Virus record (IMG/VR): IMGVR_UViG_3300032164_000047
Location: 1-31,273 of that record
Length of the DNA stretch: 31,273 nucleotides
Source: a virus
Direction: 5' to 3' (one strand)
Position 1 is the stretch's first letter; each line of letters opens with the position of its first letter. The notes under the pieces are model-generated. The model had not been told where the DNA came from. It did no database searches and saw nothing but the letters and a program-made list of their open reading frames with translations. The position numbers were made by a program, and so were the translations under genes. Below are positions 6,563 to 20,287 of the stretch, piece after piece.

Positions 6563-6958
6563 TTATTTGTCTGCCAGGACAGTCCAGCCCAGTTTCGCAA
6601 GGTCTATCCTTGCCGACTTGGCTTGGCTTTCAATCTCACGCTTCTGGTCGTCGGTCATTGTCAGCTTCAGCGCAATGATAGATTCAATGGCAAGTTGCAG
6701 GGTTTTGCATTCCACGATCTTGTGCGGCGTGTACGTCGTGCTTCCGGTGAAGTACGGCTCCAGCACAAGTGCCTTGCCGTTGTGCACGAATCGCCAGCAC
6801 TCGATTTTCGATGAGCTGTAATCCGTTACCACCTTGCCTTTTGCCGACGTAAAGATATTGGTCTTGCTGTTGACAACGACATCTGCGGAGAGTGTTGCCT
6901 GTCCGTAGCTGACTACTGCTATCAACGCCATGGCGATAATGGTGCATAGTGTTTTCAT
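6563..6958 (-). CDS. small exported protein, unknown
   Basis: 131 residues with a clear Sec signal peptide: a Lys after Met, hydrophobic core TIIAMALIAVVS and probable cleavage after SYG (MKTLCTIIAMALIAVVSYGQ). The mature part is mixed, with a beta-like first half and a helical C-terminal third (DDQKREIESQAKSARIDLAK). It starts one base after the stop of the BspA-like repeat gene (TAA C ATG), so it belongs to the same transcription unit as the adhesin-like genes. No family is recognised. It is one of five proteins with an export signal in the virion gene block. Confidence 0.6.
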   Translation of the reverse strand: MKTLCTIIAMALIAVVSYGQATLSADVVVNSKTNIFTSAKGKVVTDYSSSKIECWRFVHNGKALVLEPYFTGSTTYTPHKIVECKTLQLAIESIIALKLTMTDDQKREIESQAKSARIDLAKLGWTVLADK

Positions 6959-6959
6959 G

Positions 6960-8420
6960 TTAATTCACCGTCACAGTCCATGTTTTCGCCCTAAGATTTG
7001 TAACCGCCACATACCCTGCCGCGTTAGCCGCTTGATTTGAAATGCCCACTGTGGTGCCGCCGACATTGATGGTGCCGTTAGTTGCACCGGAATTGTCGAG
7101 GTCAATCAGGATTTGAGACACGTCATCTTGTACCAGCGAGCAGTTATCCCACCGCATTGTGAAGCCGTTTGTTTTGATGTTGTTGGCAAAGCATCCGGGT
7201 CGGTTGGTGTAAGTGAGTTTTGAATTGTAGCAGTCGAAGTCTACGATGTTTGTGCGCCAAGGAGTCCAATTGCCAACTGAGCCTGTGAGGTTAGAGCAGG
7301 AACGGAAACAGTCGTGAAAGGTTGTGCATTTAACCATTGTGGCGAAATTGGAGACGTTGCCTGTAAGGCCGGAGCACATACGGAATGTTTCAGAACAGGT
7401 TGTATTACTCACCATCGTGGAGAAATCAGACATCGAACCAGTGAGACCGGAGCAACCGGAGAAGGTGGCGCTAAGAGAAGTGTTGAGGACCATCGTGGAG
7501 AAGTCGGACATCGGACCCGTGAGACCAGAGCAACTTTGGAAGGTGGCGATAAGAGAAGTGTTGAGGACCATCGTGGAGAAATCGGACATCGGACCCGTGA
7601 GACCAGAGCAACCGTTGAAGGTGGTGTTAAGAGTAGTGTTGCTCACTATCGTGGAGAAATCAGACATCGGACCCGTGAGACCAGAGCAACCGTTGAAGGT
7701 GGCGCTAAGAGAAGTGTTGAGGACCATCGTGGAGAAATCGGACATCGGACCCGTGAGACCAGAGCAACTTTGGAAGGTGTAGCCAAGAGAAGTGTTGAGG
7801 ACCATCGTGGAGAAATCGGACATCGAACCAGTGAGACCAGAGCAACCGTTGAAGGTGCGGTCAAGAGAAGTGTTGCGTACCAAATTAGACACAACTGGCA
7901 TATTTGTAACACCAGAATCGCGCCACGAACTATTCAACGTGTTTATTGAAACCGGCAACAACTCGGCATTGCTCCAGCCAAAGCGGTTTGTGTTGTATGC
8001 CCATGAAATTGAAGCCAGTGCCGTCTGCGAATTAGAGACGCCACTGATAGTCACATTGGTTACGAATGCTCGTACCGTCGCTTGGTTGAAACTATACGCA
8101 GTTACTTTGGGCCATTGACTTATTGTGAGCGTGTACTGGCCTGCGTTTGTGAAGAAAGTAAATGGCGGGGTTTTGGTATTTGTAGTACTTGCATCAGGAG
8201 CAGTCCACAATATCTCAGGCCCGAAATTGGTGATAGTAGCCGCTGTTATTGTTGGAGGCACGTTGGTTGTATTGGCTTGAATGCCGAAAGTGAAGGTGGC
8301 TACGGGACCGCTGGGGCCTTGCGACAAATAACAAGCCGGGTTAACAAGCATCTGCACCCCTGCCGCTACGCAAGCGACAAGCAGACAGCCGCAGAGCAAA
8401 ACTGCAATTCGGGTTTTCAT
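6960..8420 (-). CDS. BspA-like 26-residue-repeat surface protein with lipoprotein-type signal
   Basis: 486 residues from ATG at 8420, chosen because it overlaps the previous stop (ATGA) and begins with a signal sequence, MKTRIAVLLCGCLLVAC. LVAC at residues 14-17 is a lipobox. Cleavage as an ordinary signal peptide after VAA is the alternative. Residues about 185-390 hold seven to eight copies of a 26-residue repeat with core CSGLTGPMSDFSTMV, each carrying one Cys. The period and the pattern F-x-G-C-S-x-L-T match the BspA-type/26-residue surface repeat (TIGR02167/DUF285 group), which forms a leucine-rich-like solenoid in bacterial adhesins. The C-terminus is Asn/Thr-rich. Position among tail genes suggests a fibre or a phage-encoded adhesin displayed on the host. 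The repeats are nearly identical at DNA level, so copy number may change by recombination. Confidence 0.75.
   Translation of the reverse strand: MKTRIAVLLCGCLLVACVAAGVQMLVNPACYLSQGPSGPVATFTFGIQANTTNVPPTITAATITNFGPEILWTAPDASTTNTKTPPFTFFTNAGQYTLTISQWPKVTAYSFNQATVRAFVTNVTISGVSNSQTALASISWAYNTNRFGWSNAELLPVSINTLNSSWRDSGVTNMPVVSNLVRNTSLDRTFNGCSGLTGSMSDFSTMVLNTSLGYTFQSCSGLTGPMSDFSTMVLNTSLSATFNGCSGLTGPMSDFSTIVSNTTLNTTFNGCSGLTGPMSDFSTMVLNTSLIATFQSCSGLTGPMSDFSTMVLNTSLSATFSGCSGLTGSMSDFSTMVSNTTCSETFRMCSGLTGNVSNFATMVKCTTFHDCFRSCSNLTGSVGNWTPWRTNIVDFDCYNSKLTYTNRPGCFANNIKTNGFTMRWDNCSLVQDDVSQILIDLDNSGATNGTINVGGTTVGISNQAANAAGYVAVTNLRAKTWTVTVN
7340..7880 (-). repeat. 78-base tandem repeats coding the 26-residue units
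   Basis: About seven tandem units with a 78-base period, for example GTGGAGAA on the plus strand at 7495 and again 78 bases on. The middle units are almost identical, and the outer units are more diverged. The period is a whole number of codons, so gain or loss of units keeps the frame. They lie inside the BspA-like gene. Confidence 0.85.
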
Positions 8421-9823
8421 GGGTAACTCACCTCGATAAAGCCGCTCCATTGATTTGTAGCGTTCCACGTCCCAACATTCGTGATGCACACGCACAACCG
8501 GGAATCGGCTCCAAGTGCGGTGGTATAGAATGCTGTGGTATTCAGGCCAGCCGCGTTGGCGGTGAGTTGACTCGCGCACGTTGCGGCGGTGTTGTTGCTC
8601 CAGTTGGCGAAGTAGTCCACTTGATAGCCAAGCGTGGACGGGCCTGCGCGCATGTACGAAGACACGCGCCGGAGCGTCGCGTTAGTCTTTGGAAACCACG
8701 TTACGGCCATGCCGTTTGTTGCGCCCACGACAGCGAACGATTCGCGATGCACGTTCCAGATGTTTGTCCGGGCCGTCAGGCTGTTGATGTTGCCCTGCAA
8801 GGTGTTGGTATCGGCATTGTGCGCCGCGATGGTCTCATACGGAGCCATGAGAACCGACGATGGAACGCTGAATCCGAAATGGCTCGCCATGTTCGTGCCG
8901 GTGCCGACGAGCATTTCTATGCCCGCCGCCGCCGTGCCGCTGGTACGCTTGAATCGCGCCCACAGGTCAAAGGCGTTCGTCTGAATCTGCGAGATCGGTA
9001 TTGAATATAGCACGGATTGTGGCGTAGCGTTGTCTGGCACGGTGAAAACAGTACCGCCTTCGCCCCATTCCGTGAGCAAGCCCGATGTGCGGTCGCGCAA
9101 GTAGAACTCCATCTTGCCGATGATAGTGCCTGCCCCGTTTTCAGAACACCAGAGCGTCCCTGAAATCTCCTGATCCGGCAATGATGTATACGCGGTGTTC
9201 GTGCAACCCCATGCGAACAGATATGCGCCGTTGGTCTGCGCGGCGTTCGTTGTCCACGCATTCGGGCCTAGTGTGGAAACTGGCTGATAGCATAGATATG
9301 TGTTGTTGGTAGGCCCGAAGAAGTTGGTATGGATGAGTGTCTTGGTGTTGGCCATGTAGACGACTAGCGGGGACACGAGCGACTGATCTAACTGGTTTTT
9401 CGTGACGAAGCCGTTTGTCACGTTGGCGTCCACGCCTACGACTGGTTGACTGAACGTGTTGTTACCGCTGAACGTATTGTTGCCAGTGACTACGCCGTTT
9501 GTGGCTTGCACGATCCGGGTCTCTGCGGCGTTACTGCTGATCGCAACGAGGTTCGTGGTGTCGATCCATAGCGTGTTGGTGCCAGAGCTTGCCTGCCTTA
9601 CCGTAGCGGCGGCGTTGGTCACGGTGCTTTCGCCGTTGAGTAGGACGATGTCGAAGCGGCCGGTTGTCGCGGCGAACTGGTTTGTGGGGTTCGTGAGGGA
9701 AACGGCGGCGTTCTTCTGTACCCGTGTAGTGGGGTCAACAACCATAATCTCGTTGTTCGTTGAAGCCGCTATCGCCAGCGAAGGCACACACAAAGCCACC
9801 AGAATTGTCGTGAGTATTTTCAT
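8417..9823 (-). CDS. putative exported tail fibre/adhesin, Asn/Thr-rich
   Basis: 468 residues from ATG at 9823, which overlaps the previous stop by ATGA and starts with a textbook Sec signal peptide (MKILTTILVALCVPSLAIA, cleavage before A). The mature protein is rich in Asn, Thr, Ala and Gly and beta-prone. It contains a repeated NNTFSGNNTFS motif near residue 118 and short Thr/Asn linkers. The last 110 residues form a distinct domain ending in FIEVSYP with several Cys (CITN, CVCITN). Composition and position after the nozzle gene suit a tail fibre or receptor-binding protein, but a signal peptide is unusual for a virion protein. No family is recognised. Confidence 0.65.
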   Translation of the reverse strand: MKILTTILVALCVPSLAIAASTNNEIMVVDPTTRVQKNAAVSLTNPTNQFAATTGRFDIVLLNGESTVTNAAATVRQASSGTNTLWIDTTNLVAISSNAAETRIVQATNGVVTGNNTFSGNNTFSQPVVGVDANVTNGFVTKNQLDQSLVSPLVVYMANTKTLIHTNFFGPTNNTYLCYQPVSTLGPNAWTTNAAQTNGAYLFAWGCTNTAYTSLPDQEISGTLWCSENGAGTIIGKMEFYLRDRTSGLLTEWGEGGTVFTVPDNATPQSVLYSIPISQIQTNAFDLWARFKRTSGTAAAGIEMLVGTGTNMASHFGFSVPSSVLMAPYETIAAHNADTNTLQGNINSLTARTNIWNVHRESFAVVGATNGMAVTWFPKTNATLRRVSSYMRAGPSTLGYQVDYFANWSNNTAATCASQLTANAAGLNTTAFYTTALGADSRLCVCITNVGTWNATNQWSGFIEVSYP

Positions 9824-10323
9824 ATGATTTGCGAAATCCTCCCATCCGCTATCGTCATGGTCATTGTCGTGCTGGTATGCGGGTCCGTCACGTCGTAGGT
9901 GCCGCTGGGCGAACACAGGCCCGATGCAACTACGACGGTATCGGTTGCCCCCGTGCTGGTCACGACTACGTCAAAACTGCCTGTGTACCCAATGACTTCA
10001 CCGTTTTCGACGAGGATGTGAATCGTGTGTCCTGTCGTGGTTTCGATGCAGGCGAAGATGCCGGTAAAGCCGCTGGGGGCCAGCAGGTGTTCAAGGAACT
10101 CATCAACTACCGGCTTGGACGGGTCATACAGATTGTCCTGATCCGAAATCGCCAGTATGCCAAGGTCCACAAGGTCCGATACTCGCACTGCCCGGTCCCG
10201 GAGCTTGCCCTGTGCGCCCTGGATCATCTGAAGGGCTTCCACGATAGAACTCAGGACTCGCCGGATTTCCGGGTCTCTGACGTTGCCTACCGATACGATG
10301 CCCTTTTTTGTTATCTCGGTCAC
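9820..10323 (-). CDS. putative tail protein, unknown
   Basis: 167 residues (MTEITKKGIVSVGNVRDPEI). The N-terminal 60 residues are helical (RRVLSSIVEALQMIQGAQGK). The rest is beta-rich with many Thr, Val and Gly and ends in a TMTMTIADGR strand. The gene is coupled by ATGA overlaps to the nozzle gene before it and the exported fibre gene after it. A short helical start with a beta-sandwich-like body would suit an adaptor that anchors a fibre to the tail. That role is inferred and no family is recognised. Confidence 0.6.
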   Translation of the reverse strand: MTEITKKGIVSVGNVRDPEIRRVLSSIVEALQMIQGAQGKLRDRAVRVSDLVDLGILAISDQDNLYDPSKPVVDEFLEHLLAPSGFTGIFACIETTTGHTIHILVENGEVIGYTGSFDVVVTSTGATDTVVVASGLCSPSGTYDVTDPHTSTTMTMTIADGRISQII

Positions 10324-12242
10324 GATACCACCTCGGTCATGTCGTTGGCTACCACGAGCGAATGCACGTCGTCATTGCAGACGATCTCGAATTCCCATGC
10401 CTTTTCGTTCCGCAAGAGCGGGATGCGCTGTGCTTCTTCGCCAGCGATCGTCACGGCCAGCACCGGGCTTGCGGCTTCGGCGGCGTAGATATTGACGGTC
10501 TGTGGATAGCTGTTGGCGATGAGTTGAACAACCGCGGGCGACCATTGCTTCGCCATCTGATACAGTTTCGACTTCCATGTGCCCGTGAGATTTGCCGCGC
10601 CGCCCCGCCACGACTTGATTGCCGCGCCAATAATCATGTACAGCGTGTCGGTTTCGAGGTCGGCATATAGGCCCGTGGGCTGAATGCTCGTTGTGCTGAC
10701 GGCCGCTGAGGCTTCCGCGAAGTTGAAGATGATGCTGTAGGCCGTAGTCCATGCGTAGTAAATGCCGTCGTGTTCGGCGGCAATCATGGTACTTGGCAAC
10801 AGCGCATTCCACTGTTCGCGCTTGTAGAACGGCTCGGTAATCAGGTTCCCATTCGGCCCCCGACACGCTACGAGGCCGTCCGGGCTTGCGTAGATCACGA
10901 CGCCATTGACCGTGACCATACTACGCTGGCTGATACACGACTGTTCCATTGCCATCTTGGTCTTGAACATCTCGTCGGGCTTCGTGCCTGTAAGCGCGTA
11001 GGTAGCGCCCTTGGTGCCGACAATCACGGTATTCTCTGTCACGGCGATGCTGATGATGTCGTAATCCACGGAAAGGCCGTAATCGGGCCATGCGTGGGGA
11101 TAACCGGGTTCCGAGAAGTACACGGTGCGCTTGCCAGACACGAAGCCCGCGAGGAATCCACCGGGCACGGCTACCAAGTTGGTCAACCCGGTCGGCGGCG
11201 CGTCCCATTCCGTAGACAGCAGGAATGCCCCGCAAGATGAATCCTTCTTGGAATCCGCATAGGTCGTTGTGCCGATAGCCTGCTCCACTACCAACTGATA
11301 TGCCGTACCGCCTTCGGTCGTTATCGTGCGATACAGCCTGATTTTCGTGATGTTGTAGTTGCCGGACGGCGCCGCCGCTGGCAATCCGCTGATATTGCAG
11401 TTCTGCGTAGGATCCACGGATACCACAAGCGAGGCCGGGCTTGGCGGACCTTCTTCGCCATAGGCGCTCAGGTATGTGTAGACGTAGAACCGGTCTACCT
11501 TGTAGTCACTGGCCCTGCTGGTGTCATAGGTCAGAGCGTAGGTGACATTGGGCGATGCCGTCGAGTTGACTTGGGCCGCCGATGCCGCCGCGCCGTCGAG
11601 ATAGAAGTCGGTTGTGCCCTTGTATGCGCTGATGTCGGGATAAATGCGGCCAAGCCATGAGCTGTTGGAATCGTAGGCGTCGAACCACATTGCGAACTTG
11701 TCACTGGCCCCCGCGGTTACGCGAGTCGGCATTGTAGCCAGCGTGTAGCTTTTGCCGGGAATCACTTCCACGACTTCCGTTGCCGCCGTGCCTTCAACGA
11801 GAGTACCCTGCTGTGTCACGGTCCCGGCGCTGTTCTCGAAGTAGTAGCCCCATGACCGCGTCCACGGCACAGAAGCCTTGGCTACTGCCGCACAGACTGG
11901 GGCCGCTGTGGGCGCCGGAAGGCCCAGGTCGTACTCGCCCAGGGTTCCCCGGACCTTCGGTACGCTGTTGTCGCTGTAGTAGATGCGGTCGTAGAGATCG
12001 TTGTCAATCGGGCTCTGTACCACGGTAACGTAGTTGTCCCAACTGAGCCAGCTTGAGCCATACTTGAAGATCGACAACCTCAAAGCGTCGGGCAACGTTG
12101 TTACATCGCCAACGTCCTTGATTGCACCCAGTTTGCCAGAAAGCAGGTCGCAGTTCTCGGCCTTCTGGGCTTCGCCGTCGCCCAATAGGCGCGGAGACAT
12201 TCGCGGTCGAAGTCCTTGGAAGTTGAGTATTGAGAACTTCAT
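10320..12242 (-). CDS. tail nozzle / stabilisation-type protein
   Basis: 640 residues. The start MKFSILNFQGLRPRMSPRLL, followed by GDGEAQKAENCDLLSGKLGAI, is the characteristic opening of nozzle or stabilisation proteins of short-tailed phages (T7 gp12 and P22 gp10 functional class), which cap the tail and hold DNA. A beta-propeller-like body follows (KVDRFYVYTYLSAYGEEGPPSPAS, ITVTE/TVIVGTKGATYALTG strands). It ends ANDMTEVVS and its stop overlaps the next start. Length is in the normal range. It follows the beta-helix fibre gene by 30 bases. Identification rests on the N-terminal pattern and on gene order. Confidence 0.75.
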   Translation of the reverse strand: MKFSILNFQGLRPRMSPRLLGDGEAQKAENCDLLSGKLGAIKDVGDVTTLPDALRLSIFKYGSSWLSWDNYVTVVQSPIDNDLYDRIYYSDNSVPKVRGTLGEYDLGLPAPTAAPVCAAVAKASVPWTRSWGYYFENSAGTVTQQGTLVEGTAATEVVEVIPGKSYTLATMPTRVTAGASDKFAMWFDAYDSNSSWLGRIYPDISAYKGTTDFYLDGAAASAAQVNSTASPNVTYALTYDTSRASDYKVDRFYVYTYLSAYGEEGPPSPASLVVSVDPTQNCNISGLPAAAPSGNYNITKIRLYRTITTEGGTAYQLVVEQAIGTTTYADSKKDSSCGAFLLSTEWDAPPTGLTNLVAVPGGFLAGFVSGKRTVYFSEPGYPHAWPDYGLSVDYDIISIAVTENTVIVGTKGATYALTGTKPDEMFKTKMAMEQSCISQRSMVTVNGVVIYASPDGLVACRGPNGNLITEPFYKREQWNALLPSTMIAAEHDGIYYAWTTAYSIIFNFAEASAAVSTTSIQPTGLYADLETDTLYMIIGAAIKSWRGGAANLTGTWKSKLYQMAKQWSPAVVQLIANSYPQTVNIYAAEAASPVLAVTIAGEEAQRIPLLRNEKAWEFEIVCNDDVHSLVVANDMTEVVS

Positions 12243-12272
12243 TCATGCGCCCTTCTTAAATGCAAAGATTTG

Positions 12273-13736
12273 TCAATGCGGCCAGATGCCGCCTTCATTC
12301 GTGTAGACGTTGGCTACTGTGCCGGTGGGCGAGCTTTCGTCGCCCCAGCTTGATCCATAACTTGCGCCAGCTAGGTCAATTCCGTACATGACGGCACCAG
12401 TTGAAACCGAACCTCTATTGTATATTCCTGCTAACAGGCGGCCGTGCAACGCCGACTTGACTGTTCCCGCCACGTTTGAACTTGACGCCACCACCGAGTA
12501 ATCCGCGCGGAAACCGTAGCCGAAATTCGTGACCTGACCTATGGTGCTACATCCCTGAACCAATATGTAGTCGGAATTGCGAAGCGCCCACACCCCGGCG
12601 TTGTAGTTTGTGGCCGGCGCACTGTTGTTGTAGACCTGGAACTTGATGCGGTCTACCTCGAAGCCAACGGAGTTCCGTTTGAGTTCCAGACAGTTGCCGT
12701 TGTAATTTGTGGACGTGAAGATAACGGCCTGATTGGTGTGTGCTATGCCGGTTTCCGACTGGTTGCCTCGGACGTAAATCGTGCCGCCGCCATAGAACCC
12801 CTCGAATACAATGGCGTTGGTGAAGAAGTACTCGCCGTCGCCAAACTGCACCACGATGTATCGGTCAGCCGGTACGAACCTGTTGTACGAGCTGATTTTG
12901 TTCTGGATAGTGGCGTAACTATCGGCTGTCGTGAACGTCACGCTGGCGTTGGTTGTGGGATCGAGCCTGAAGTTGCCGCCGTTCTCAGAGTTGATTTCGT
13001 TGGCGGTTACGCGGTAAACGTCTACGGTGCCGCCAGCAAATTGACTCGCCGTTACGGTTTGCAGCGTAGCCGTGCCACCGCTGATCGTTACGGTTGTGGC
13101 CGCGAGGTTGCCTACAGTCGCTTTTGTGAGGGTGCTGGTGCCTACGACGGCATTATCCACCACGGAAGTTGTGATTATGGCCTTGACTAACGTGCTGGTG
13201 CCGCCCACTACCCACTGAAAGGTTCCGGTCGTGCCGGAGACCATCGTAAAACTCTGCGTAAGCGAAACAGCTTGACCCAGTACGCCACTGCCGATGTTGA
13301 ACCTGCCGACATCGCCCCATTCCGTCCAGCGGTACAGGAAAGATGCCGCGCCAGTTGCGCTGCCAATGCCCGCAAATGCCTGATATGGCCCGGCGTCAAA
13401 GACGTTGTTGGAAAATGTTACGATATTCCCCGCGCTGATATTGAAGTAGCAATCCCGCGCCACGGCTACGCTGACATTGGTGGGAAAGCCAATGCTTGAA
13501 TTGATCGTCCACGGGCCGCCGTCAAAGATCAGCCTGTACTGGCGATTCGAGACCTTGCCTAGAATGGTCATGATCTCGCTCGATACCCGATTCGTGCCGC
13601 CTGCCGTAAAGTTGCGGACCAGAATATCGCTCGATACCCACTCCGAGAACTGGGCAAACGCTGTCAAGCCTATGGTTGCCATAACAAGCACCACGAGAAT
13701 CGTCCATATCGCCATTGCTTTTCTAAGTTTCGTCAT
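12273..13736 (-). CDS. beta-helix (pectate-lyase-like) tail fibre/spike with signal peptide
   Basis: 487 residues. The first 29 form a Sec signal peptide: basic TKLRK, core WTILVVLVMATIGLT, likely cleavage after AFA and before Q. The central part is Thr/Val/Gly-rich. The C-terminal half (residues about 285-470) has the short-strand pattern of a right-handed beta-helix (VVQFGDGEYFFTNAIVFEG, TIYVRGN, FEVDRIKFQVYNN, DYILVQGCSTIG). That fold is common in phage spikes that bind or cleave surface glycans. It starts one base after the stop of the 117-residue gene. No catalytic residues can be assigned. The export signal on a spike-like protein is unexpected. Confidence 0.65.
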   Translation of the reverse strand: MTKLRKAMAIWTILVVLVMATIGLTAFAQFSEWVSSDILVRNFTAGGTNRVSSEIMTILGKVSNRQYRLIFDGGPWTINSSIGFPTNVSVAVARDCYFNISAGNIVTFSNNVFDAGPYQAFAGIGSATGAASFLYRWTEWGDVGRFNIGSGVLGQAVSLTQSFTMVSGTTGTFQWVVGGTSTLVKAIITTSVVDNAVVGTSTLTKATVGNLAATTVTISGGTATLQTVTASQFAGGTVDVYRVTANEINSENGGNFRLDPTTNASVTFTTADSYATIQNKISSYNRFVPADRYIVVQFGDGEYFFTNAIVFEGFYGGGTIYVRGNQSETGIAHTNQAVIFTSTNYNGNCLELKRNSVGFEVDRIKFQVYNNSAPATNYNAGVWALRNSDYILVQGCSTIGQVTNFGYGFRADYSVVASSSNVAGTVKSALHGRLLAGIYNRGSVSTGAVMYGIDLAGASYGSSWGDESSPTGTVANVYTNEGGIWPH

Positions 13737-13737
13737 G

Positions 13738-14091
13738 TTACACCCCCGCCGTTATCGCGCTACTGACATCAATTCGCTGGAAGTATCCCCAGAGATACCA
13801 CGTACGAGCTGCACCTGAATTCGTGAACTCGATAGACTTGGTGCCGTTGGCCGCGGTATAGCCCTCAAATACCGTCTGTACGGGTTCTGTCGGCGTAGTC
13901 AGGCTTGGCGTGGGGTCCGTTGCTGAATCAGAAAGCCACAAGCTGTATTTGTAGACATCGGCTACAGGCATGGCGATTGACACCGTTGCCTTGAGTCCCA
14001 CGACGGCCACGGATAGAATGGCGTCAAGTTGCGTGATGGGCAGTACCGATATGCCGATGCCCGTTTCGGATGTATTGCATGACGTACCCAT
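13738..14091 (-). CDS. small putative tail protein, unknown
   Basis: 117 residues (MGTSCNTSETGIGISVLPIT). Beta-rich and poor in charge, with a Thr/Pro linker near the middle (SDSATDPTPSLTTPTEP). It has no signal peptide or membrane segment. AGGAGGCCAGAC gives a strong ribosome site. It sits between the Ig-like baseplate-type gene and the beta-helix spike gene, so a minor tail or fibre-attachment role is plausible. The family is not recognised. Confidence 0.6.
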   Translation of the reverse strand: MGTSCNTSETGIGISVLPITQLDAILSVAVVGLKATVSIAMPVADVYKYSLWLSDSATDPTPSLTTPTEPVQTVFEGYTAANGTKSIEFTNSGAARTWYLWGYFQRIDVSSAITAGV

Positions 14092-14107
14092 GTCTGGCCT
14101 CCTGTTC

Positions 14108-14443
14108 CTATGCGTCAGGAAATTCCTGATTGACCCTTACCGTGATGATGTCAAGCACGGTTTCCGGGAGCGAATTGTCCGTTACGGTGAACTCCAACTC
14201 ATACGACCCTGGATCAACGTCAAGCCCGGATGCCGGCACCTGGACACTGACGATGCCCTGTTCGGCCTTGACCTTCGTGCAAGTGGCTTCCCACAGGCTC
14301 TCGTCGGTGTCGCCGCGAGCCCTGAACTTGGCCGTTACGACAACGCCACTGTCGGAAAGGTCATAGACCGTCTCGTTGTAAAGGCGGTATAACTGGAAGT
14401 ACCGAATCGGCCTATCGTCTACTGTCCATGTGATGTCTGCCAT
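14108..14443 (-). CDS. Ig-like baseplate/neck protein (BppU N-terminal-like)
   Basis: 111 residues from ATG at 14443, chosen because GAGGCTGAT precedes it and the previous gene stops one base earlier. The sequence ITWTVDDRPIRYF, then VVVTAKFRARGD, GIVSVQVPASGL and PGSYELEFTVTD, is a run of beta strands like the N-terminal domain of BppU-type upper baseplate proteins, in which a prescribed-change phrase is followed by a GxYxxEF strand. Those domains attach receptor-binding proteins to the virion. It lies directly after the two connector candidates. The family call is by pattern only. Confidence 0.55.
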   Translation of the reverse strand: MADITWTVDDRPIRYFQLYRLYNETVYDLSDSGVVVTAKFRARGDTDESLWEATCTKVKAEQGIVSVQVPASGLDVDPGSYELEFTVTDNSLPETVLDIITVRVNQEFPDA

Positions 14444-14444
14444 A

Positions 14445-15074
14445 TCAGCCTCGCAATCCCGTGGTACGCCGAACATGTTTTCGGCTGGTTTCACACTTGG
14501 CCCTTGTCACGGCGTCGTTGTAGTCCGCAAGGTACTGGCCGGCCAGTCCGTTATCGCTCCACTTCTTGCCCGGCATTCGCAACAGTTCGTACATGGCCCT
14601 TGCAATGATGCCTTCGGCCCAGAGATTCAGAAAGGCCCGCGTCTGGTCATTGTAGTTGAACGGCCATTCGCCGATACGCGGCGCCATGACGACGTTGACT
14701 TCCAGCCCATTGGTTTCGTCGGACGCCGGGATGATCGTGGACCTGAGTTTCAGGATGTCCGGGGGATCAAAGTCGTAGTTCTCCGCGTCTTGTACGGTGC
14801 CGGGCTTGCCAAGAGCGGCGTTGTCTTCTGTGTTGAACCGGACTTCGTCAATACGAATCACGTCAGAACAAATGCGGCTCCAATCCAGAACGTACTCATC
14901 TTCTTCAGCCACAAGGTTCTGAGATTCAAGCGTTACAACCCAGCGTTCAGACGCCAAGCAGAACCGTCGCGCGCCCTGTTTTAGCTTCTGCTCGATAAGC
15001 GGTTTCCCGCAAGACGGCAACTCGGTCATGACATACTCGTAGAAGTCGGTGTAGCATTTCATTTTGCCTTGCAT
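14445..15074 (-). CDS. putative head-tail connector/adaptor protein
   Basis: 209 residues (MQGKMKCYTDFYEYVMTELP). Mixed helical, with a central acidic beta part (LRSTIIPASDETNGLEVNVVMAP) and a helical end (LWAEGIIARAMYELLRMPGKKWSD). A long helix carrying Tyr-Glu-Leu residues next to a DxxxxxN loop is what adaptor proteins of short-tailed phages often show near their C-terminus. It starts one base after the stop of the other adaptor candidate. A second possible start at 15062 (MKCYTDF) also has a ribosome-like AAGG. The role comes mainly from gene order between capsid and tail. Confidence 0.5.
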   Translation of the reverse strand: MQGKMKCYTDFYEYVMTELPSCGKPLIEQKLKQGARRFCLASERWVVTLESQNLVAEEDEYVLDWSRICSDVIRIDEVRFNTEDNAALGKPGTVQDAENYDFDPPDILKLRSTIIPASDETNGLEVNVVMAPRIGEWPFNYNDQTRAFLNLWAEGIIARAMYELLRMPGKKWSDNGLAGQYLADYNDAVTRAKCETSRKHVRRTTGLRG

Positions 15075-15075
15075 G

Positions 15076-15411
15076 TTATGCCCCCGATGCTTTCTGGTAG
15101 TGCAGGTTTGACTGAGCCATGTTTCCAGCGGATTCGCTGTCTTCGCTCAATATCCAAGAACATGCGTCGTGTATCAACGTCTCACGATACTCGTCGAGTA
15201 CTGGGATGACCGTTGCCGTTGCCGTGCTGGCGATGTCGGTCGGCGACGACGTGACAACAGTGGACACGTAAAACGCCTCGGGATGTGAACCCCAGAGGCG
15301 TTTCAGTGCGGTGTTAAGGTATGTGATCCAAACGGCTGTGCCCCAACGCCTTGTGCCAACCGCATCTTTTATCTGTCGCTCACCTAGCGCAATGAATTCG
15401 CTCACCGTCAT
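15076..15411 (-). CDS. putative head-tail adaptor (DUF6682-like)
   Basis: 111 residues from ATG at 15411. The frame is open further upstream to a TTG at 15441, but ATG with GAGGTGACGCCA in front is the better start. The protein has an N-terminal helix (EFIALGERQIKDAV), a central segment on HPEAFYVSTVV, and a C-terminal helix pair, IPVLDEYRETLIHDACSW followed by SESAGNMAQSNLHYQK. That ending (a helix, then an acid-rich turn, then a helix with HYQK) resembles the C-terminus of DUF6682-type phage adaptors that fill the portal-tail gap. It is shorter than most members. Confidence 0.5.
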   Translation of the reverse strand: MTVSEFIALGERQIKDAVGTRRWGTAVWITYLNTALKRLWGSHPEAFYVSTVVTSSPTDIASTATATVIPVLDEYRETLIHDACSWILSEDSESAGNMAQSNLHYQKASGA

Positions 15412-15458
15412 TGGCGTCACCTCATTCGCAAGCACCGACAAATAACGGCAGCGGCAGA

Positions 15459-16100
15459 TCAGACCTGTGCCATATTGGCTTGGTTCGCCATCTCAGCCAT
15501 CTGCTGTTCACGCTCCATTGCTTCTCGGGTCCGCGTTGTTCCCTGTTTACGCTCGGCCTCGAACTCGGCCCACGTGCCTTCTCGCACAATCTCGAAATTG
15601 TATGTCCTGATCTTCGCCACGACCTTGCGTGGTATGCCCGGCAACTGCTTGTACTGGGGGTATGTTCCGTTACGGGCAACATCCCAGTAGCGTTCCGGCA
15701 ATGGCACCAACTTGTCGCGCTCCATCTGGACGACTTCACCGTTGACGCTGAGGACTACTGTGTCGGAATCGCTTTCCTTCGACTTCGGAGCGAACCGGCC
15801 CCAGAAGACCTTCTCTTCGGCAACCTTTTCGACTGCCGGGGCAACCAACGTGCTTTTCTCTACTGCGCCCGACTCAACCGTCGGACTGATCCTGACTTGG
15901 CTCGGCTGTTGCGGAGGCAAGTCGTTCTTCTGCGAAATCGCAAAGCCACCCTGGACCTGTACGATCTCGTGAGTCTCGGGACTCAGCCCTTTCTTTCCCA
16001 TCACAAGCCCGGCGGCCTGCGCTGTGCTGAATGGGCGGCCCGCCATCGTAACGATCAACCCGGTCTGCTCTTGGCCTTTCTTCGGCTCTTGGCTACTCAT
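15459..16100 (-). CDS. putative virion-associated protein, unknown
   Basis: 213 residues. The acidic, Pro-rich middle (residues about 60-120) separates an N-terminal segment (LIVTMAGRPFSTAQAAGLVM) from a basic/aromatic C-terminal part (RYWDVARNGTYPQYKQLPGI, then IVREGTWAEFEAERK) and a helical Gln/Met-rich tail. AGGAAGGG precedes the ATG. It is the first gene after the rho-independent terminator at 16127-16160 and leads the connector genes, so it likely begins a distinct transcription stretch or relies on read-through. The family is not recognised. Confidence 0.55.
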   Translation of the reverse strand: MSSQEPKKGQEQTGLIVTMAGRPFSTAQAAGLVMGKKGLSPETHEIVQVQGGFAISQKNDLPPQQPSQVRISPTVESGAVEKSTLVAPAVEKVAEEKVFWGRFAPKSKESDSDTVVLSVNGEVVQMERDKLVPLPERYWDVARNGTYPQYKQLPGIPRKVVAKIRTYNFEIVREGTWAEFEAERKQGTTRTREAMEREQQMAEMANQANMAQV

Positions 16101-16126
16101 TGTGAACCCTTCCTGTTTGTTGTGCA

Positions 16127-16160
16127 GAAAAGGTGCGCCCCCGGTTAAGAGGGCGCACCT
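16127..16160 (-). terminator. rho-independent terminator after the head genes
   Basis: A perfect 10-base stem (AGGTGCGCCC / GGGCGCACCT, 16131-16160 with a 10-base loop) is followed on the minus strand by TTTTCTGC. The flanks GCAGAA and TTCTGC can lengthen the stem. It sits in the 78-base gap between the 241-residue head gene and the next gene, so it probably lowers expression of connector and tail genes relative to capsid. Confidence 0.8.
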
Positions 16161-16178
16161 GCAATTCTGCGTTGACTC

Positions 16179-16904
16179 CTACCTGCCGCTCGAACACCTG
16201 TCGAACGACCCAGCGCGAATCAGTGCGCGTTCGTCGTTTGCGTTGATGTCCGTGGTCGCGCTCATCTTGATGCCCGCGGGGGCAACCTTGCCGATCGCGA
16301 TCGGAAGCAGATCCCAGCGCCCGGTGATGCGGTAAATCGTACCGCTCTTCACGGCGCGACTCAGCGTCACTTCGTCAGCACTGATTCCCTGTCCGGCTGT
16401 CAGCACTTCGATTACGGCTTCCTTCTCGGCGCCGCCGGCTTCTTCCTTGATCAGGATGCGACTTCCCTCGCCGATCCTGTTGCCGCTCGCCGGCACGTCA
16501 CTGTTGAAGTGACCAGTCCGGTTCGCCGTCGTGTCCAGCGTCCACGAAGCAATGGCTTCGTCTTCGTAGCCGTAAGACGAATTGGATTTGTAGTCTCCGA
16601 TTTCGTCCCAGCCCAGATAGACGCCGTCGCCATACGCCACTGTCGTCTGGATCGTGGATGTCATCTGGTCGCCGCCTTCATACGGCTCAATGCCTGCACC
16701 GGCCGTATAGAGACTGGTCGCCTGCGAGCCGCCATGTTCCATGAAGCCGTTGTCAGACGCCGCGGTCGTGAAACCCTTGCTCCAGTGAGCATGAGCCACT
16801 TCCGCGTCGCCAACCGCGATGATGTCAACCCAGTCAGGAATGAACCCGATGCACAGGTAATATGCCGCTCCCGTGCTGTTGTATGTTGCTTCGATACTTC
16901 TCAT
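16179..16904 (-). CDS. putative head decoration/fibre protein
   Basis: 241 residues from ATG at 16904. A further in-frame ATG exists 18 bases upstream, but AAGGAGAAGGCACA precedes the 16904 ATG. The sequence is beta-rich with many Gly, Ser, Thr and Tyr (IEATYNSTGAAYYLCIGFIP, GDGVYLGWDEIGDYKSNSS). It has no signal peptide. It follows the major capsid gene by 92 bases and precedes a terminator, the usual slot for a decoration or head-fibre gene that must be made at capsid-like levels. The family is not recognised and the role is inferred from place. Confidence 0.55.
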   Translation of the reverse strand: MRSIEATYNSTGAAYYLCIGFIPDWVDIIAVGDAEVAHAHWSKGFTTAASDNGFMEHGGSQATSLYTAGAGIEPYEGGDQMTSTIQTTVAYGDGVYLGWDEIGDYKSNSSYGYEDEAIASWTLDTTANRTGHFNSDVPASGNRIGEGSRILIKEEAGGAEKEAVIEVLTAGQGISADEVTLSRAVKSGTIYRITGRWDLLPIAIGKVAPAGIKMSATTDINANDERALIRAGSFDRCSSGR

Positions 16905-16957
16905 TGTGCCTTCTCCTTGCATTCCCCTCTTCTACTGCGCGGGGGAGATCGGCGCTT

Positions 16958-17005
16958 TGGCGTCAATCGCCAGTTGAAACCCTTGTCCTACCATCATCAG
17001 GTAGG
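16958..17005 (-). other. two small hairpins at the 3' end of the capsid gene
   Basis: CCTACC/GGTAGG (16987-17005, 7-base loop) overlaps the capsid stop codon, and TGGCG/CGCCA (16958-16972, 5-base loop) follows. Neither has a T-run. They may protect the capsid mRNA 3' end or be RNA-processing sites. Confidence 0.3.
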
Positions 17006-18013
17006 TTCAGCAGTGGCGCCGACTTCGCAACGCGCTGCCCAGAGCTGTTGCAGAATCGCCGCGGCCTGCATGGTCTTCCACGACACGAACCCGCGCTGAC
17101 CCAGGGGGTCGCCAGGAACCGGCTTGCCGGGGTTGTACACCGCAGGCGTGATGGCATTCGAGCCCGCCAGCGGCACGATGCCGTAGGCGTTACGCGCCAC
17201 GATTACCAGCGGATACACGTCGCAGGGCGCCGCAACCGACACCTTGGACCCACCGCTAAGGTAGGTTGTGCCCGACGCGCCAGCCGAGTTGAACGGGTCC
17301 CAGAGTGCGCTCAGGAGGAACCGGACGCCCTCGACTTTGCCCAGCTCGCCTTCGATGGCCTTGCCGGAGTCCGCGTACTGCTCGGTCGGAACGAAGCCGG
17401 GGACGCCACGGATGTCAGGCGCGAGGTCCGTGTGACCCATCGCCCAGAATGCCGGAGCCACGGGCTCTGTAGAAATCTGAGACGAAGCCTTGATGAGCTG
17501 GCTGATTTCCATGGCCTTGTTGCGCTTGAAGCCGCGTACGACTTTGCGGAGCATCCCGCGCGTAATCGTGCCGTTCACGGTTGCCCGTGTCGTGCCCGTG
17601 CCGCCGTAGTAGACGTTCGTGCCGGCCTTGAGGACGGCAATACGCACCACTTCGACGGTCTCAGCCGCCTGCTCGCCGCAGACAGTTGACATCTGATCGA
17701 GAACCGGGTCTTCGTGGGTATCCGCGATCACGTCCGTGATCTGAACCCAGTCACCGTACTGCTCCAGTGTGGCTTCAACGTCCGTAATACGGACGATCTG
17801 CCCCGGAGGAGTTACGCCTTCAGCCAGCGGGGCCGTAGCGCGAGCAAGAGGCTCAAACCTTCTCCACTTGACCGTCTTGGTCTTGTTCTTGCCCTGAGGA
17901 TCAAACTGCCCGAAGCGCTCGGTAAACATGAGGTGTTTGCCGCGTTCGAGCATCTTCTTCGCCACACGAGCGGCCGTGCGGCTTCCAATGTCGCCATAGG
18001 TCGTTATAGGCAT
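16997..18013 (-). CDS. major capsid protein, N4-gp56 family
   Basis: 338 residues. It opens MPITTYGDIGSRTAARVAKK, then has FTERFGQFDPQGKNKTKTV, PLAEGVTPPG, QYGDWVQITDVI and VLDQMSTVCGEQAAETVEV. That series is diagnostic of the N4-gp56 major capsid family (HK97-type fold). Length is on the usual range for the family. ACAAGGAGACGACG precedes the ATG, so translation should be strong. Upstream are the Com-like and scaffold genes, and downstream is the putative decoration gene. No N-terminal delta-domain is fused, which fits the separate scaffold. This is the most secure virion identification here. Confidence 0.92.
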   Translation of the reverse strand: MPITTYGDIGSRTAARVAKKMLERGKHLMFTERFGQFDPQGKNKTKTVKWRRFEPLARATAPLAEGVTPPGQIVRITDVEATLEQYGDWVQITDVIADTHEDPVLDQMSTVCGEQAAETVEVVRIAVLKAGTNVYYGGTGTTRATVNGTITRGMLRKVVRGFKRNKAMEISQLIKASSQISTEPVAPAFWAMGHTDLAPDIRGVPGFVPTEQYADSGKAIEGELGKVEGVRFLLSALWDPFNSAGASGTTYLSGGSKVSVAAPCDVYPLVIVARNAYGIVPLAGSNAITPAVYNPGKPVPGDPLGQRGFVSWKTMQAAAILQQLWAARCEVGATAEPT

Positions 18014-18050
18014 CGTCGTCTCCTTGTGCTTGTTTGCTCACACGCGCAGG

Positions 18051-18068
18051 GGCTCGACGGCCTTCGGG
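18051..18068 (-). repeat. 5'-UTR stem-loop motif before the capsid gene (copy 3)
   Basis: The minus strand reads CCGAAGGCCGTCGAGCCCC about 38 bases before the capsid ATG. GGC-N6-GCC can pair. It resembles the motif before the portal gene and before the exported 245-residue gene, but less exactly than those two resemble each other. Confidence 0.4.
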
Positions 18069-18092
18069 CTCATTGGTGAGTATTATGTTTAA

Positions 18093-18281
18093 CTACATCT
18101 GTCTCACTCTGAAAAAGAAATGCTTGCCTTCCGCGTCGTAACATCTACGACACTGAATCTCTATCTCGGTTCCGGGTCCGAGCCTACCCTTGAACGCCAG
18201 CTTGTTACATTGTGGACAGCGCATTTCCTGAGACTGATCCACAACCACAATCTTGCGGCTATCAAGCTTTGTTGAACTCAT
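18093..18281 (-). CDS. Com-like zinc-ribbon protein
   Basis: 62 residues from ATG at 18281 (GGGAG ribosome site seven bases upstream). MRCPQCNK followed by IEIQCRRC is the four-cysteine ribbon of Mu Com-type proteins, small RNA-binding regulators that in phage Mu switch on translation of the mom DNA-modification gene. The first 20 bases overlap the end of the scaffold gene in another frame. Placement between scaffold and capsid is unlike Mu, where com sits next to mom. It may act on a phage mRNA (a methyltransferase or capsid message), which is inference. The zinc ribbon is clear and the regulatory role is not shown. Confidence 0.7.
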   Translation of the reverse strand: MSSTKLDSRKIVVVDQSQEMRCPQCNKLAFKGRLGPGTEIEIQCRRCYDAEGKHFFFRVRQM

Positions 18282-19302
18282 CTTCGAACTCCCGCTTGTC
18301 ATCGCCAATGCTTGTCGACGACGAACGCGAGGCCCGCAATCCGCTTTCATCCTTCAGCGAATCACCGAGCAGTCCGTCCTTCTTGGCCTTCTTGTCGGCT
18401 AACACGGCGTCCTTGCCTGCCTTGACGGTCCTTGCGCGGGCTTCCTTGAACGCGCTGATGACGCGAATGCCGTCGAGTCCATCCCATGAACCCACGACTT
18501 TCTTCATCATCGGTGGCAACTGCTTCTGCCATTCCGCGAATTCCTTGGTGTTCACGATTTCCTGGGCGTCCGGGTGGCCCTTGACGTAATTGCCTTCGGC
18601 GTCCCGGACACCGCGCTCGACGGTGTTCCAGAACTGCGTCTTCTGGATTTCATAGGCCAGCGCGTCATGCTGTTTCCTGACTTCGGCCACGGCTTCGTTC
18701 AGCGATCCATCTGCGGGCGCCTGTCCCTTCTTGGCAATCATGGTCGCCAACGCCACAACGGCTTGCATGACTTCGGGATACTCGCCAACCACAGTCTTGA
18801 CCGTGTTCTTGAGATCGCCGTCGGGCAGGCTGTCTACGAGTTGGGCCGGATCATCCAGTGCAGGAGCCGACGCGCCAGTCCGAGTCAAGCTTTCAGCGAT
18901 TTCGCGCCGCAGGGTCTCAATCTCAGATTCCAACTGCTTCTCACGGTCAGATACCGCGGGCGCGGCTGGATTGTCATCCTTGGGCGCAGGAGTAGAGGAT
19001 TTCTTCGACAATGTTTCGGCACGTTCCCGCATCCACTTCTCGTCAGCAGATTCGCTGGGGACAGGAGTAGTAGGCGTTGCTTCCGGCTTGGGCTTGCCAT
19101 CCTCGCCGTCTTCCGCACCCGACGCAGTGGCTACCGCTGGATCTGCCGGCGGCAGCTCGTTGGTGGCTTCCTTGGCCGGCGTTGCAGACTGGGCTGGAGC
19201 CGATTCGCTCTCGAATTCCTGCCGGAACGTGTCATCGTTCTCGACCGGACCCGATAGCGCAGCGGCTACTTCTGGGGCTTCTATTGTCGATGCTTCTGCC
19301 AT
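18262..19302 (-). CDS. capsid scaffold protein
   Basis: 346 residues, very rich in Ala, Glu, Pro, Asp and Lys, with no Cys and few aromatics. The long acidic/Pro-rich N-terminal half is followed by a helical part (residues about 120-230, KQLESEIETLRREIAES) and a basic/acidic C-terminal end. This composition, and its place immediately before the capsid gene, is that of a phage scaffold, which fills the procapsid and leaves before packaging. ACCAAGGAGACGAAC precedes the ATG. There is no recognised protease motif. The assignment is by composition and gene order, so 'internal head protein' remains the main alternative. Confidence 0.7.
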   Translation of the reverse strand: MAEASTIEAPEVAAALSGPVENDDTFRQEFESESAPAQSATPAKEATNELPPADPAVATASGAEDGEDGKPKPEATPTTPVPSESADEKWMRERAETLSKKSSTPAPKDDNPAAPAVSDREKQLESEIETLRREIAESLTRTGASAPALDDPAQLVDSLPDGDLKNTVKTVVGEYPEVMQAVVALATMIAKKGQAPADGSLNEAVAEVRKQHDALAYEIQKTQFWNTVERGVRDAEGNYVKGHPDAQEIVNTKEFAEWQKQLPPMMKKVVGSWDGLDGIRVISAFKEARARTVKAGKDAVLADKKAKKDGLLGDSLKDESGLRASRSSSTSIGDDKREFEDEFNKA

Positions 19303-19359
19303 GTTCGTCTCCTTGGTCGTCGGGTCTTCGTGACTCAGCGACTACTTGTGTGATGCAAC

Positions 19360-19524
19360 CTACTTGGCCTTGCTTGACTTCTTCTCGGTCTTCGCTTCGG
19401 GCGCAGGCGAGGCAACAGGTGCGGCAACTGCCGCTACCGGTGCCAGGCGCAACTCAGCCAGCAACTCTGCCTTCAGCTCGCGCTTGATATCTTCCTTGAG
19501 TGCCTGATCTCGTGATAGTGCCAT
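19360..19524 (-). CDS. small charged head-region protein
   Basis: 54 residues (MALSRDQALKEDIKRELKAE). The first half is a charged amphipathic helix (LKEDIKRELKAELLAELR). The second is an Ala/Pro linker ending in a Lys/Ser tail (KTEKKSSKAK). AAAGGGAGTCCGCAC precedes the ATG. It lies between the exported 245-residue gene and the scaffold. A helper of head assembly or a scaffold-associated peptide is possible. The family is not recognised. Confidence 0.55.
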   Translation of the reverse strand: MALSRDQALKEDIKRELKAELLAELRLAPVAAVAAPVASPAPEAKTEKKSSKAK

Positions 19525-19549
19525 GTGCGGACTCCCTTTTGCTTACGGC

Positions 19550-20287
19550 CTAGTAATCGCCGAGGTTGATTGAATGAGCGCGAATCGTTCCGTAGGTTAG
19601 ATTCGTGGTGCCCGTTGCGACGTAGTTACTGTCCACGCACACGTTCAGCCACATCTCTACGGGAGTCGTGGTGCCATCGAATGACGCCGGAGATGCCAAG
19701 CAGGCGTCAAACGTATTGGTGGCCTGTACCGTTGCGCCGGTAGGACACAGATTGACTGCCGTGCCCGACAGGCTGCTATTGGCTCCAGCGGCCGTGCCAA
19801 GCGCATACGTCACATGAGAGGTAGACGTCAACGACGCCGCGTTGGTGGTCATGCGGAAATCGTCCATCATCACACCAACAACGTAGATGCGACCAGTCGG
19901 CCATGCGCCTATCTTGACGCTGTACACTCCGTTACTCGACGGCCTGTTCGGCAGCTTGATCGACGTGCCGGATATAGCAATGGTGTCCTTGCGGAGATTA
20001 CCGTAATCCACAGAAGCCACTGTTGATCCGTTTGTTGAAATGCCAGCGAGACGCAATCCAGCTACGCCTTCGATCGTTGACGTAGTAGAGATTGCACCAT
20101 CCTTGGTCAGCCGGAATCCACCGTCTTTTTGAGTGATTGTCAGATTGCCGTTGAGATCAACATTGCCATTCTCGAAGACGTTATCGCCAGCATGAAGCCA
20201 GTTCTCGCGGTCATCGAGCGCGAAGGCCGGCGATATGATTGCCAGAGCGAGGGTTATACCGCAGAGGGACCGGAAGGCGTTCTTCAT
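19550..20287 (-). CDS. exported protein in the head gene cluster, unknown
   Basis: 245 residues with a Sec signal peptide (MKNAFRSLCGITLALAIISP, cleavage after AFA, before LDD). The mature protein is beta-rich: GNVDLNGNLTITQKDGGFRL, Ser/Thr-rich strands, and a C-terminal domain ending HSINLGDY. The phrase NGNLTIT in an otherwise Asn/Thr-rich protein recalls phage fibre or head-decoration proteins. AAGGAGACAGCTC precedes the ATG, and a 5'-UTR motif shared with the portal gene lies at 20312-20330. A Sec-exported product encoded between portal and scaffold is hard to reconcile with a role in the capsid. It may act at the cell surface. Confidence 0.6.
   Translation of the reverse strand: MKNAFRSLCGITLALAIISPAFALDDRENWLHAGDNVFENGNVDLNGNLTITQKDGGFRLTKDGAISTTSTIEGVAGLRLAGISTNGSTVASVDYGNLRKDTIAISGTSIKLPNRPSSNGVYSVKIGAWPTGRIYVVGVMMDDFRMTTNAASLTSTSHVTYALGTAAGANSSLSGTAVNLCPTGATVQATNTFDACLASPASFDGTTTPVEMWLNVCVDSNYVATGTTNLTYGTIRAHSINLGDY

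Follow-up and report, generated by a model that had tools for sequence, protein, structure and literature searches.

The assembly of tailed phages is generally placed in the cytoplasm, and in the known short-tailed phages it is there that adaptor and nozzle seal the DNA-filled head. Exported proteins encoded by phages are known among superinfection-exclusion lipoproteins, e.g. Llp of T5. In the filamentous phages (Ff/M13), pVIII and pIII of the virion carry cleavable type I signal sequences when synthesised, and they are exported prior to assembly (PMC4823517). A signal peptide has been predicted in pneumococcal PblB, and PblB of Streptococcus phage SM1 gets to the surface after lytic permeabilisation (PMC4508584). 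No tailed phage with an exported neck or nozzle was found in the literature searched, which left subscription papers mostly outside its coverage.

The DNA examined here (the window) is a stretch of 31,273 bp from IMG/VR virus record IMGVR_UViG_3300032164_000047. An initial annotation described five of its genes, here P1 to P5, as encoding proteins with export signals inside a virion gene block. This placement holds, as profile searches identified portal, capsid, connectors (phrog_437 and phrog_399) and nozzle around them (Table 1). Portal, N4-gp56-type capsid, adaptors and nozzle lie in one block and correspond to the podophage tail module of the P22/N4/BcepC6B type, the portal-adaptor-nozzle part being common to P22-, T7- and N4-like and BcepC6B-type podophages. 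The nozzle matches the six-chain virion protein of PDB entry 8jov, which we take to be that of Ralstonia phage GP4. The likeness to Ff/M13 would lie in virion proteins carrying signals, which are predicted ones here. However, Ff particles are extruded through the membrane with no preformed head, whereas the window, with its genes for portal, scaffold and N4-type capsid, belongs to a tailed phage with a dsDNA genome; an Inoviridae identity, which needs an ssDNA genome and pI/pIV-type extrusion genes, was rejected on the portal, capsid and nozzle genes. With PblA/PblB of SM1 and relatives, the likeness would be that of tail proteins also acting on the bacterial surface, but these phages are of Siphoviridae morphology and have no lineage-wide signal on neck and nozzle. 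For the window and its lineage we propose, with a probability of about 0.5, that the outer, tail-side parts are exported and are attached to the particles outside the cytoplasm, probably when the cell lyses. That the proteins are in fact exported and cleaved, are present on the virion and are joined to it at lysis is what we infer from the data below.

Table 1. Features of the virion gene block (positions in the window; SP, signal-peptide score)
Feature	Position	Strand	Evidence
Portal, P22-type fold family, no signal	20627..22690	-	phrog_332 3e-31; P22_portal match weak
P1, 245 aa, exported fibre-like protein (predicted), portal-scaffold slot	19550..20287	-	SP 9.4, AAGGAG SD
P1 signal peptide, 23 aa	20219..20287	-	cleavage AFA^LD, scorer
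Scaffold-like acidic protein, no signal	18262..19302	-	position and synteny
Major capsid protein, N4-gp56 type, no signal	16997..18013	-	phrog_1357 2e-56
Neck adaptor-type protein, phrog_399 family, no signal	15076..15411	-	SP -1.2 (longer start) / -1.9
Neck adaptor-type protein, phrog_437, no signal	14445..15062	-	profile match
P2, 487 aa, exported spike-like protein (predicted), just upstream of nozzle gene	12273..13736	-	SP 11.7
P2 signal peptide, 28 aa	13653..13736	-	cleavage AFA^QF, scorer
Tail nozzle, no signal	10320..12242	-	phrog_511 4e-126; PDB 8jov chain A 2e-62
g167, 167 aa, no signal	9820..10323	-	after nozzle gene in window, L095, L109
P3, 468 aa, Asn/Thr-rich (25%), exported (predicted)	8417..9823	-	SP 9.1, SD GGGAGGA
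P3 signal peptide, 19 aa	9767..9823	-	cleavage AIA^AS, scorer
P4, 486 aa, exported (predicted), eight 26-residue BspA-like (DUF285) repeats	6960..8420	-	SP 9.1, DUF285 5e-10
P4 signal peptide, 19 aa, or 16 aa with lipobox Cys17	8364..8420	-	scorer
P5, 131 aa, small exported protein (predicted), weakest signal of five	6563..6958	-	SP 8.1
P5 signal peptide, about 19-21 aa	6896..6958	-	scorer

Signals were scored with a home-made signal-peptide scorer combining n-region charge, h-region hydropathy and the -3/-1 rule, calibrated on E. coli K-12 proteins, for which the exported controls (n = 13) reach 7.3 to 9.7 and the cytosolic ones (n = 67) at most 6.0. P1 to P5 score from 8.1 to 11.7, compared to 4.6 at most for the 22 other window genes tested, and each of the five has a positive n-region, a hydrophobic h-region and a small-x-small cleavage site. 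Whole-protein shuffles reached the observed score in none of 3000 cases for P1, P2, P3 and P4 and in 3 of 3000 for P5. The mechanical ORFs at 8417 and 6960 had been begun too far upstream: the P3 start was moved from GTG at 9916 to ATG at 9823, with GGGAGGA upstream, and that of P4 to ATG at 8420, with GAGGTGA upstream and an ATGA overlap with the P3 stop. The signals on P1 to P5 are confirmed by these scores as real Sec-type signals, and export of the five proteins is predicted.

Some membrane proteins are also high-scoring with this scorer, and matches with later TM helices were therefore removed; membrane anchors are able to mimic signals. The N-termini could instead be inner-membrane anchors, with tails built on the membrane, heads docking to them and cleavage occurring late or never; exported or membrane-bound tail parts could then meet cytoplasmic heads before lysis, and a few called starts (a 466-aa gene of locus L017 and a 139-aa gene of L210, L numbers denoting compared loci) indeed show no convincing cleavage site. 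We consider this very unlikely, as the h-region is short in most of the proteins, with a small-x-small site after it and no TM helix further on, which is the pattern of cleavable signals, and as the bulk of the protein would still lie beyond the membrane.

The major capsid protein was used as the marker for a lineage tree, in which the window falls into a capsid clade with an SH-aLRT of 98. Among related IMG/VR phages, a signal-peptide protein lies in the gap between portal and scaffold genes in 24 of the 35 members of this clade versus 0 of 59 outside it; genes with a predicted signal peptide are hence not peculiar to one contig. As to whether homologues keep the signal, a check proposed in the initial annotation, the answer for the P1 slot is yes in most of the clade. 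The slot signal is absent in the remaining 11 of 35 members with the slot visible, and some members are without any signal, which indicates that the signal is not essential for the body plan. In the slot proteins, the N-terminal module is conserved and the C-terminus varies. The C-terminal half of P1 matches phrog_11997 and a full-length P1 homologue (L014:4088-4864, 27%, 1e-9) also carries a signal peptide, while a close-relative scan with P1 alone gave no relatives. A signal-peptide gene between portal and scaffold would be a testable sequence hallmark for this phage group.

For P2 the same check is positive throughout, since every homologue with a visible start (from L095, L109/L228, L014, L229 and L230) keeps the signal peptide and its position immediately before the nozzle gene. 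Between P2 and its L095 homologue the N-domain (residues 29-165) shows 75% identity and the C-terminal part 26%, and the signal peptides, identical at 54% (15/28), are yet both scored as such. P1 and P2 therefore follow the pattern of fibres and spikes, with a conserved virion-side N-terminus and a variable distal C-terminus; the AlphaFold2 model of P2 (mean pLDDT 40) was too poor to use. The tail blocks of the window and of L109 show no receptor-binding candidate other than the exported proteins. In L109, every fibre candidate located between the capsid gene and the ejection-type genes carries a signal, except the small g167. Moreover, a predicted exported protein of L122 bears a tail-spike S74 chaperone domain.

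Signals are conserved and restricted to tail-side and fibre genes. Inside the lineage they were counted in 11 of 21 genes for the second adaptor, 4 of 16 for the nozzle and 4 of 4 for P2, compared to 0/35 for the portal, 0/54 for the scaffold and 0/39 for the first adaptor; capsid and ejection-type proteins likewise never have one. Outside the lineage, relatives with the same module display no signal on second-adaptor (0/70) or nozzle genes (0/81). The signal-bearing adaptors form a branch (L017/L024/L123/L124/L126/L127/L135) within which L017, L024, L126 and L135 have signal-bearing nozzles as well. These adaptors belong to the phrog_399 family (8e-17), their signal is an extra N-terminal stretch ahead of where the homologues without signal begin, and a profile of them alone aligns over 180 residues to the 12-chain virion protein of 8jov (E 7e-4). 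Between L123 and L124, the mature parts of adaptor-2b are 98% identical and the signal peptides 42%, both still being signals ending ^G. The signal-bearing nozzles are homologous to the signal-free nozzle of L119 (3.7e-40), residue 75 aligning with residue 31 of L119; a PDB profile search with them gave nothing, and the AlphaFold2 model of the L017 nozzle (pLDDT 43) was too poor to use. A scan with a three-sequence alignment of the signal-bearing adaptors found no further phage with such an adaptor. Dual translation, giving an exported and a cytoplasmic form of one gene, was sought without success, no in-frame SD-preceded start being present after the cleavage site in 16 genes, and no second nozzle copy was seen in the loci with signal-bearing nozzles.

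The first explanation given in the initial annotation was display on the infected cell. In the form considered here, the exported proteins would stay on or around it without being virion parts, covering receptors to block superinfection, keeping progeny from re-adsorbing or altering attachment. Phage-encoded tail proteins acting at the surface are known (PblB of SM1), P4 has a lipobox, the slot protein of L139 begins with the lipoprotein-like LLLVAFLFTGCAG, and L019 and L167 contain short lipoprotein-like genes. Display would nevertheless leave unexplained the fixed slots beside portal and nozzle and the signals that the L017 branch carries on its only second adaptor and its only nozzle, and no candidate for a virion receptor-binding protein would be left in L109 or in what is visible of the window. 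As a general explanation it is unlikely, and it may apply mainly to the accessory P3 to P5, which have no close homologues.

The second explanation, fibres exported and then added outside the cell, gains support from four of the above results, namely the fibre slots conserved across the lineage, the conserved N-terminus and variable C-terminus of P2, the lack of another receptor-binding candidate in the window and L109, and the signals on neck adaptor and nozzle in the sub-branch. Given that the latter two have no obvious adhesin use, their signals favour the addition of exported parts to particles. According to this model, the five genes would encode tail-side and surface appendage virion proteins made as Sec preproteins, most likely folding in the periplasm or, if the host has a single membrane, outside the cell. 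Heads filled with DNA, together with their portal, first adaptor and internal ejection proteins, would be assembled in the cytoplasm. The exported parts would join the particle once the contents of the compartments come together, for which lysis is the simplest occasion. Export would be limited in the window to the appendages, namely P1 in the head slot, P2 next to the nozzle and P3 to P5 further downstream. The nested L017/L126/L135 sub-branch would export neck adaptor and nozzle as well and would hence build the greater part of its tail outside the cytoplasm. As adaptor and nozzle of the known short-tailed phages seal the head in the cytoplasm, an exported nozzle would require another plug. 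Tentatively, a dsDNA tailed-phage lineage may divide the building of its virion between two compartments, with heads made in the cytoplasm and with fibres, plus neck adaptor and nozzle in one branch, exported by Sec, the two being joined after the inner membrane is breached. If so, the rule of cytoplasmic assembly would be broken, packaged DNA would have to be retained differently in the head until the tail joins, and assembly would be tied to host secretion and lysis.

Roles could also be divided, P1 and P2 being virion parts added outside the cytoplasm and P3, P4 and P5 accessory envelope proteins of the infected cell. P3 to P5 sit between g167 and the ejection-type genes, a spot that is empty in L109, and P5 is unlike any fibre, with no homologue among the compared loci. 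P4 has two competing sites, an SPI-type CVA^AG and a lipobox LVAC at Cys17 ([LVI][ASTVI][GAS]C pattern), the only possible lipobox among P1 to P5, and could therefore be a lipoprotein. It would then resemble lipoproteins of the T5 Llp type, which are likewise phage-encoded and exported, but P1 to P4 differ from these as large fibre-like proteins in a virion block. The division is quite unlikely, for P3 is fibre-like in its low charge and Asn/Thr-rich composition and the P4 repeats are found in ordinary phage tail proteins. Indeed, tail-annotated proteins of Phapecoctavirus and of the Klebsiella prophage ST16-OXA48phi5.4 have the same BspA/DUF285 repeat (about 30-40% identity over part of it); unlike P4, they begin without a signal peptide.

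Among 50,697 phage records no isolate of this lineage was found, the best capsid identity being 40%, and phage records searched by tblastn with P1, P2 and P3 yielded no match; neither did a close-relative scan with the window nozzle alone give relatives. With regard to the host, the nearest sister capsids on the tree are those of Victivallales/Lentisphaeria prophages L159, L162 and L167 (SH-aLRT 93). In these, as in additional genome loci from those phyla, the block has no such signals with one exception, a small lipoprotein-like gene preceding the L167 nozzle. A member of the lineage itself, L158, lies on a contig of 3 kb that binning assigned to Deltaproteobacteria.

The window, an IMG/VR virus record of 31,273 bases, is a fragment of a short-tailed phage whose genes are read on the minus strand. 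The portal gene is followed by a gene of 94 aa and then by P1, scaffold and capsid; after several small genes come two genes of neck adaptor type, P2, nozzle, g167 (a 167-aa gene), P3, P4 and P5. Beyond these lie a gene whose product has a single predicted membrane segment, a DUF1353 gene and genes for ejection-type proteins that continue past the left contig end. The capsid can be assigned to phrog_1357 and the nozzle to phrog_511, both known families, and the nozzle also matches PDB 8jov (2e-62). In a set of 50,697 deposited phage records the nearest capsid has 40% identity, hence no isolate of the lineage is among those records.

P1 to P5, which the initial annotation had described as starting with Sec-type signals, were scored with a home-made scorer calibrated on E. 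coli K-12 proteins (7.3-9.7 for 13 exported proteins and no more than 6.0 for 67 cytosolic ones); membrane proteins may score > 8 and were removed by the presence of later TM helices. All five carry such signals, 22 other window genes scoring at most 4.6, and whole-protein shuffles reached the real score 3 times per 3000 for P5 and never for P1 to P4. The starts of P3 and P4 were corrected to ATG 9823 and ATG 8420; each has a good ribosome-binding site and overlaps the upstream gene. The P4 N-terminus displays a site for signal peptidase I or, alternatively, a lipobox (LVAC).

Features of the window and of related phage loci, with signal scores where calculated
Locus	Position	Strand	Feature	Score
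Window	30937-31272		open-ended ORF, SATSGDxSHSATSGD-type repeats
Window	20627-22690	-	portal
Window	19550-20287	-	P1	9.4
Window	15076-15411	-	neck adaptor-type protein (phrog_399)
Window	12273-13736	-	P2	11.7
Window	8417-9823	-	P3	9.1
Window	6960-8420	-	P4	9.1
Window	6563-6958	-	P5	8.1
Window	6068-6532		154-aa protein, membrane segment near C-terminus
Window	5402-5932		DUF1353 protein
L014	4088-4864		collinear with P1
L017	600-1208		202-aa protein, twin-arginine-like start (MNRRSFVKAI)
L017	1274-1831		start matching TIGR01409
L124	13257-16524		three adaptor-domain genes
L019	19676-20029		lipoprotein-like (...VYGCNSGG)
L167	18070-18507		lipoprotein-like (...ATGCASTSS)

Retention of the signal by homologues, a check suggested at the outset, was borne out for P2. 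A signal peptide starts every homologue (L095, with a capsid 81-82% identical, L109/L228, L014, L229 and L230), all directly beyond the g128/g117 genes and with the nozzle next where the contig continues; in L109 one more small signal-peptide gene separates the two. Between the window and L095, identity is 54% in the signal, 75% over residues 29-165 and 26% over residues 231-487.

Relatives were collected by capsid alignment (80 loci) and by a closer alignment (80 viral loci, including 63 new ones, and 50 loci from bacterial genomes), most of them partial, with genes called crudely and families typed by iterated profile search. Among loci with a visible portal, a signal-peptide gene lies between portal and capsid in 25/38 at a capsid identity to the window of 52% or more, in 2/30 at 47-52% and in 0/66 below 47%. 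On the capsid tree the window falls inside a clade of 55 rows (SH-aLRT 98), to which positives at the P1 position between portal and scaffold are confined: 24 of the 35 loci with this slot visible versus 0 of 59 outside (Fisher p about 3e-14 with no correction for relatedness, the counts being not fully independent because the contigs are related). The slot signal needs at least seven changes on this tree and therefore comes and goes. Slot proteins share a short module right after the cleavage site, approximately NERGnxxFtGxVnxxGxwxIKGTxVTATAAELN, past which they differ in length (103-826 aa) and sequence. On sequence grounds, they have the layout of fibre proteins, the base being conserved and the tip changing.

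The strongest result comes from beyond the window, namely the adaptor and nozzle signals of one nested branch. The second neck adaptor carries a predicted signal in L017, L024, L123, L124, L126, L127 and L135/L136; this signal precedes the point where signal-less homologues start and is explained by one change on the capsid tree. These adaptors belong to phrog_399 (8e-17), as does the window adaptor gene at 15076-15411, and a profile built from the signal-bearing members alone gives an alignment along the 12-chain protein in PDB 8jov (E 7e-4). Furthermore, a signal is also borne by the next large gene, of 850-880 aa, in L017, L024, L126 and L135/L136. This gene is a nozzle: it matches by profile (3.7e-40) the signal-less nozzle of L119, whose start aligns well inside it. 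No second nozzle was seen in these loci, and an SD-preceded in-frame start past the cleavage site, a possible cytoplasmic form, was looked for and not found. In the adaptor shared by L123 and L124 the mature parts are 98% identical and the signals only 42%, both signals being good and of the same cleavage-site type. What is conserved is the character of a signal, not its letters.

Counted by family, no signal occurs in the portal, the scaffold, the first adaptor or any of the small head genes; the sole capsid-family positive is a separate 202-aa protein, and the long downstream ejection-type proteins of L208, L209 and L210 show no signal. A signal-bearing L122 protein contains an S74 chaperone domain, which is typical of tail spikes. 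This distribution follows compartments, with inside or head-side parts lacking signals and tail-side parts sometimes having them.

A two-site assembly is the simplest account, in which we infer export, cleavage, virion incorporation and timing alike. The signalled proteins would be exported by Sec and fold outside the cytoplasm, and lysis would bring them together with the heads, to which they would be added. In the window appendages alone would be concerned (P1, P2, perhaps P3-P5), in the L017 branch most of the tail. In P22-type phages it is normally the nozzle that closes the filled head, so that with an exported nozzle some other plug would be required, for which the first adaptor is a possible candidate; this is the main difficulty. 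Assembly may also be tethered to the membrane. Alternatively, the exported proteins may be displayed on the infected cell, which would explain P4 and P5 well but not why the sole adaptor and nozzle carry signals, and which would leave L109 without a virion receptor-binding candidate. P3-P5 sit between g167 and the ejection-type genes, where L109 is empty, and are therefore accessory; for P3 and P5 no accompanying homologue was found among relatives. P4 has eight 26-residue BspA/DUF285 repeats, which also occur in proteins, annotated as tail proteins and starting without signal peptide, of ordinary phages of E. coli and Klebsiella. A mixed role, with P1 and P2 in the virion and P3-P5 in the envelope, is plausible.

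As for known parallels, Ff coat proteins are exported with type I signals (PMC4823517), but Ff particles lack a head. In phage SM1, PblB gets to surfaces through lysis, and a signal has been predicted for a pneumococcal PblB (PMC4508584). The literature searched, outside which lie many subscription papers, yielded no tailed phage whose neck or nozzle is reported to be exported.

Several further features were observed. The three successive L124 genes, which share one adaptor domain (231, 230 and 618 aa), each have their own signal peptide. The 202-aa L017 protein contains a segment like the N4-type capsid N-arm (TIGR04387, E 4e-5), which small signal-less proteins encoded 5' of the L123 and L124 portal genes also have. 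A second L017 gene start matches the twin-arginine model above cut-off, so this phage may use Tat besides Sec. The repeat ORF of the window lies at the right contig end. The 154-aa protein 3' of P5 and the DUF1353 protein beyond P5 are possibly part of a lysis region, and the small lipoprotein-like genes in the tail blocks of L019 and L167 are possible spanin or exclusion proteins.
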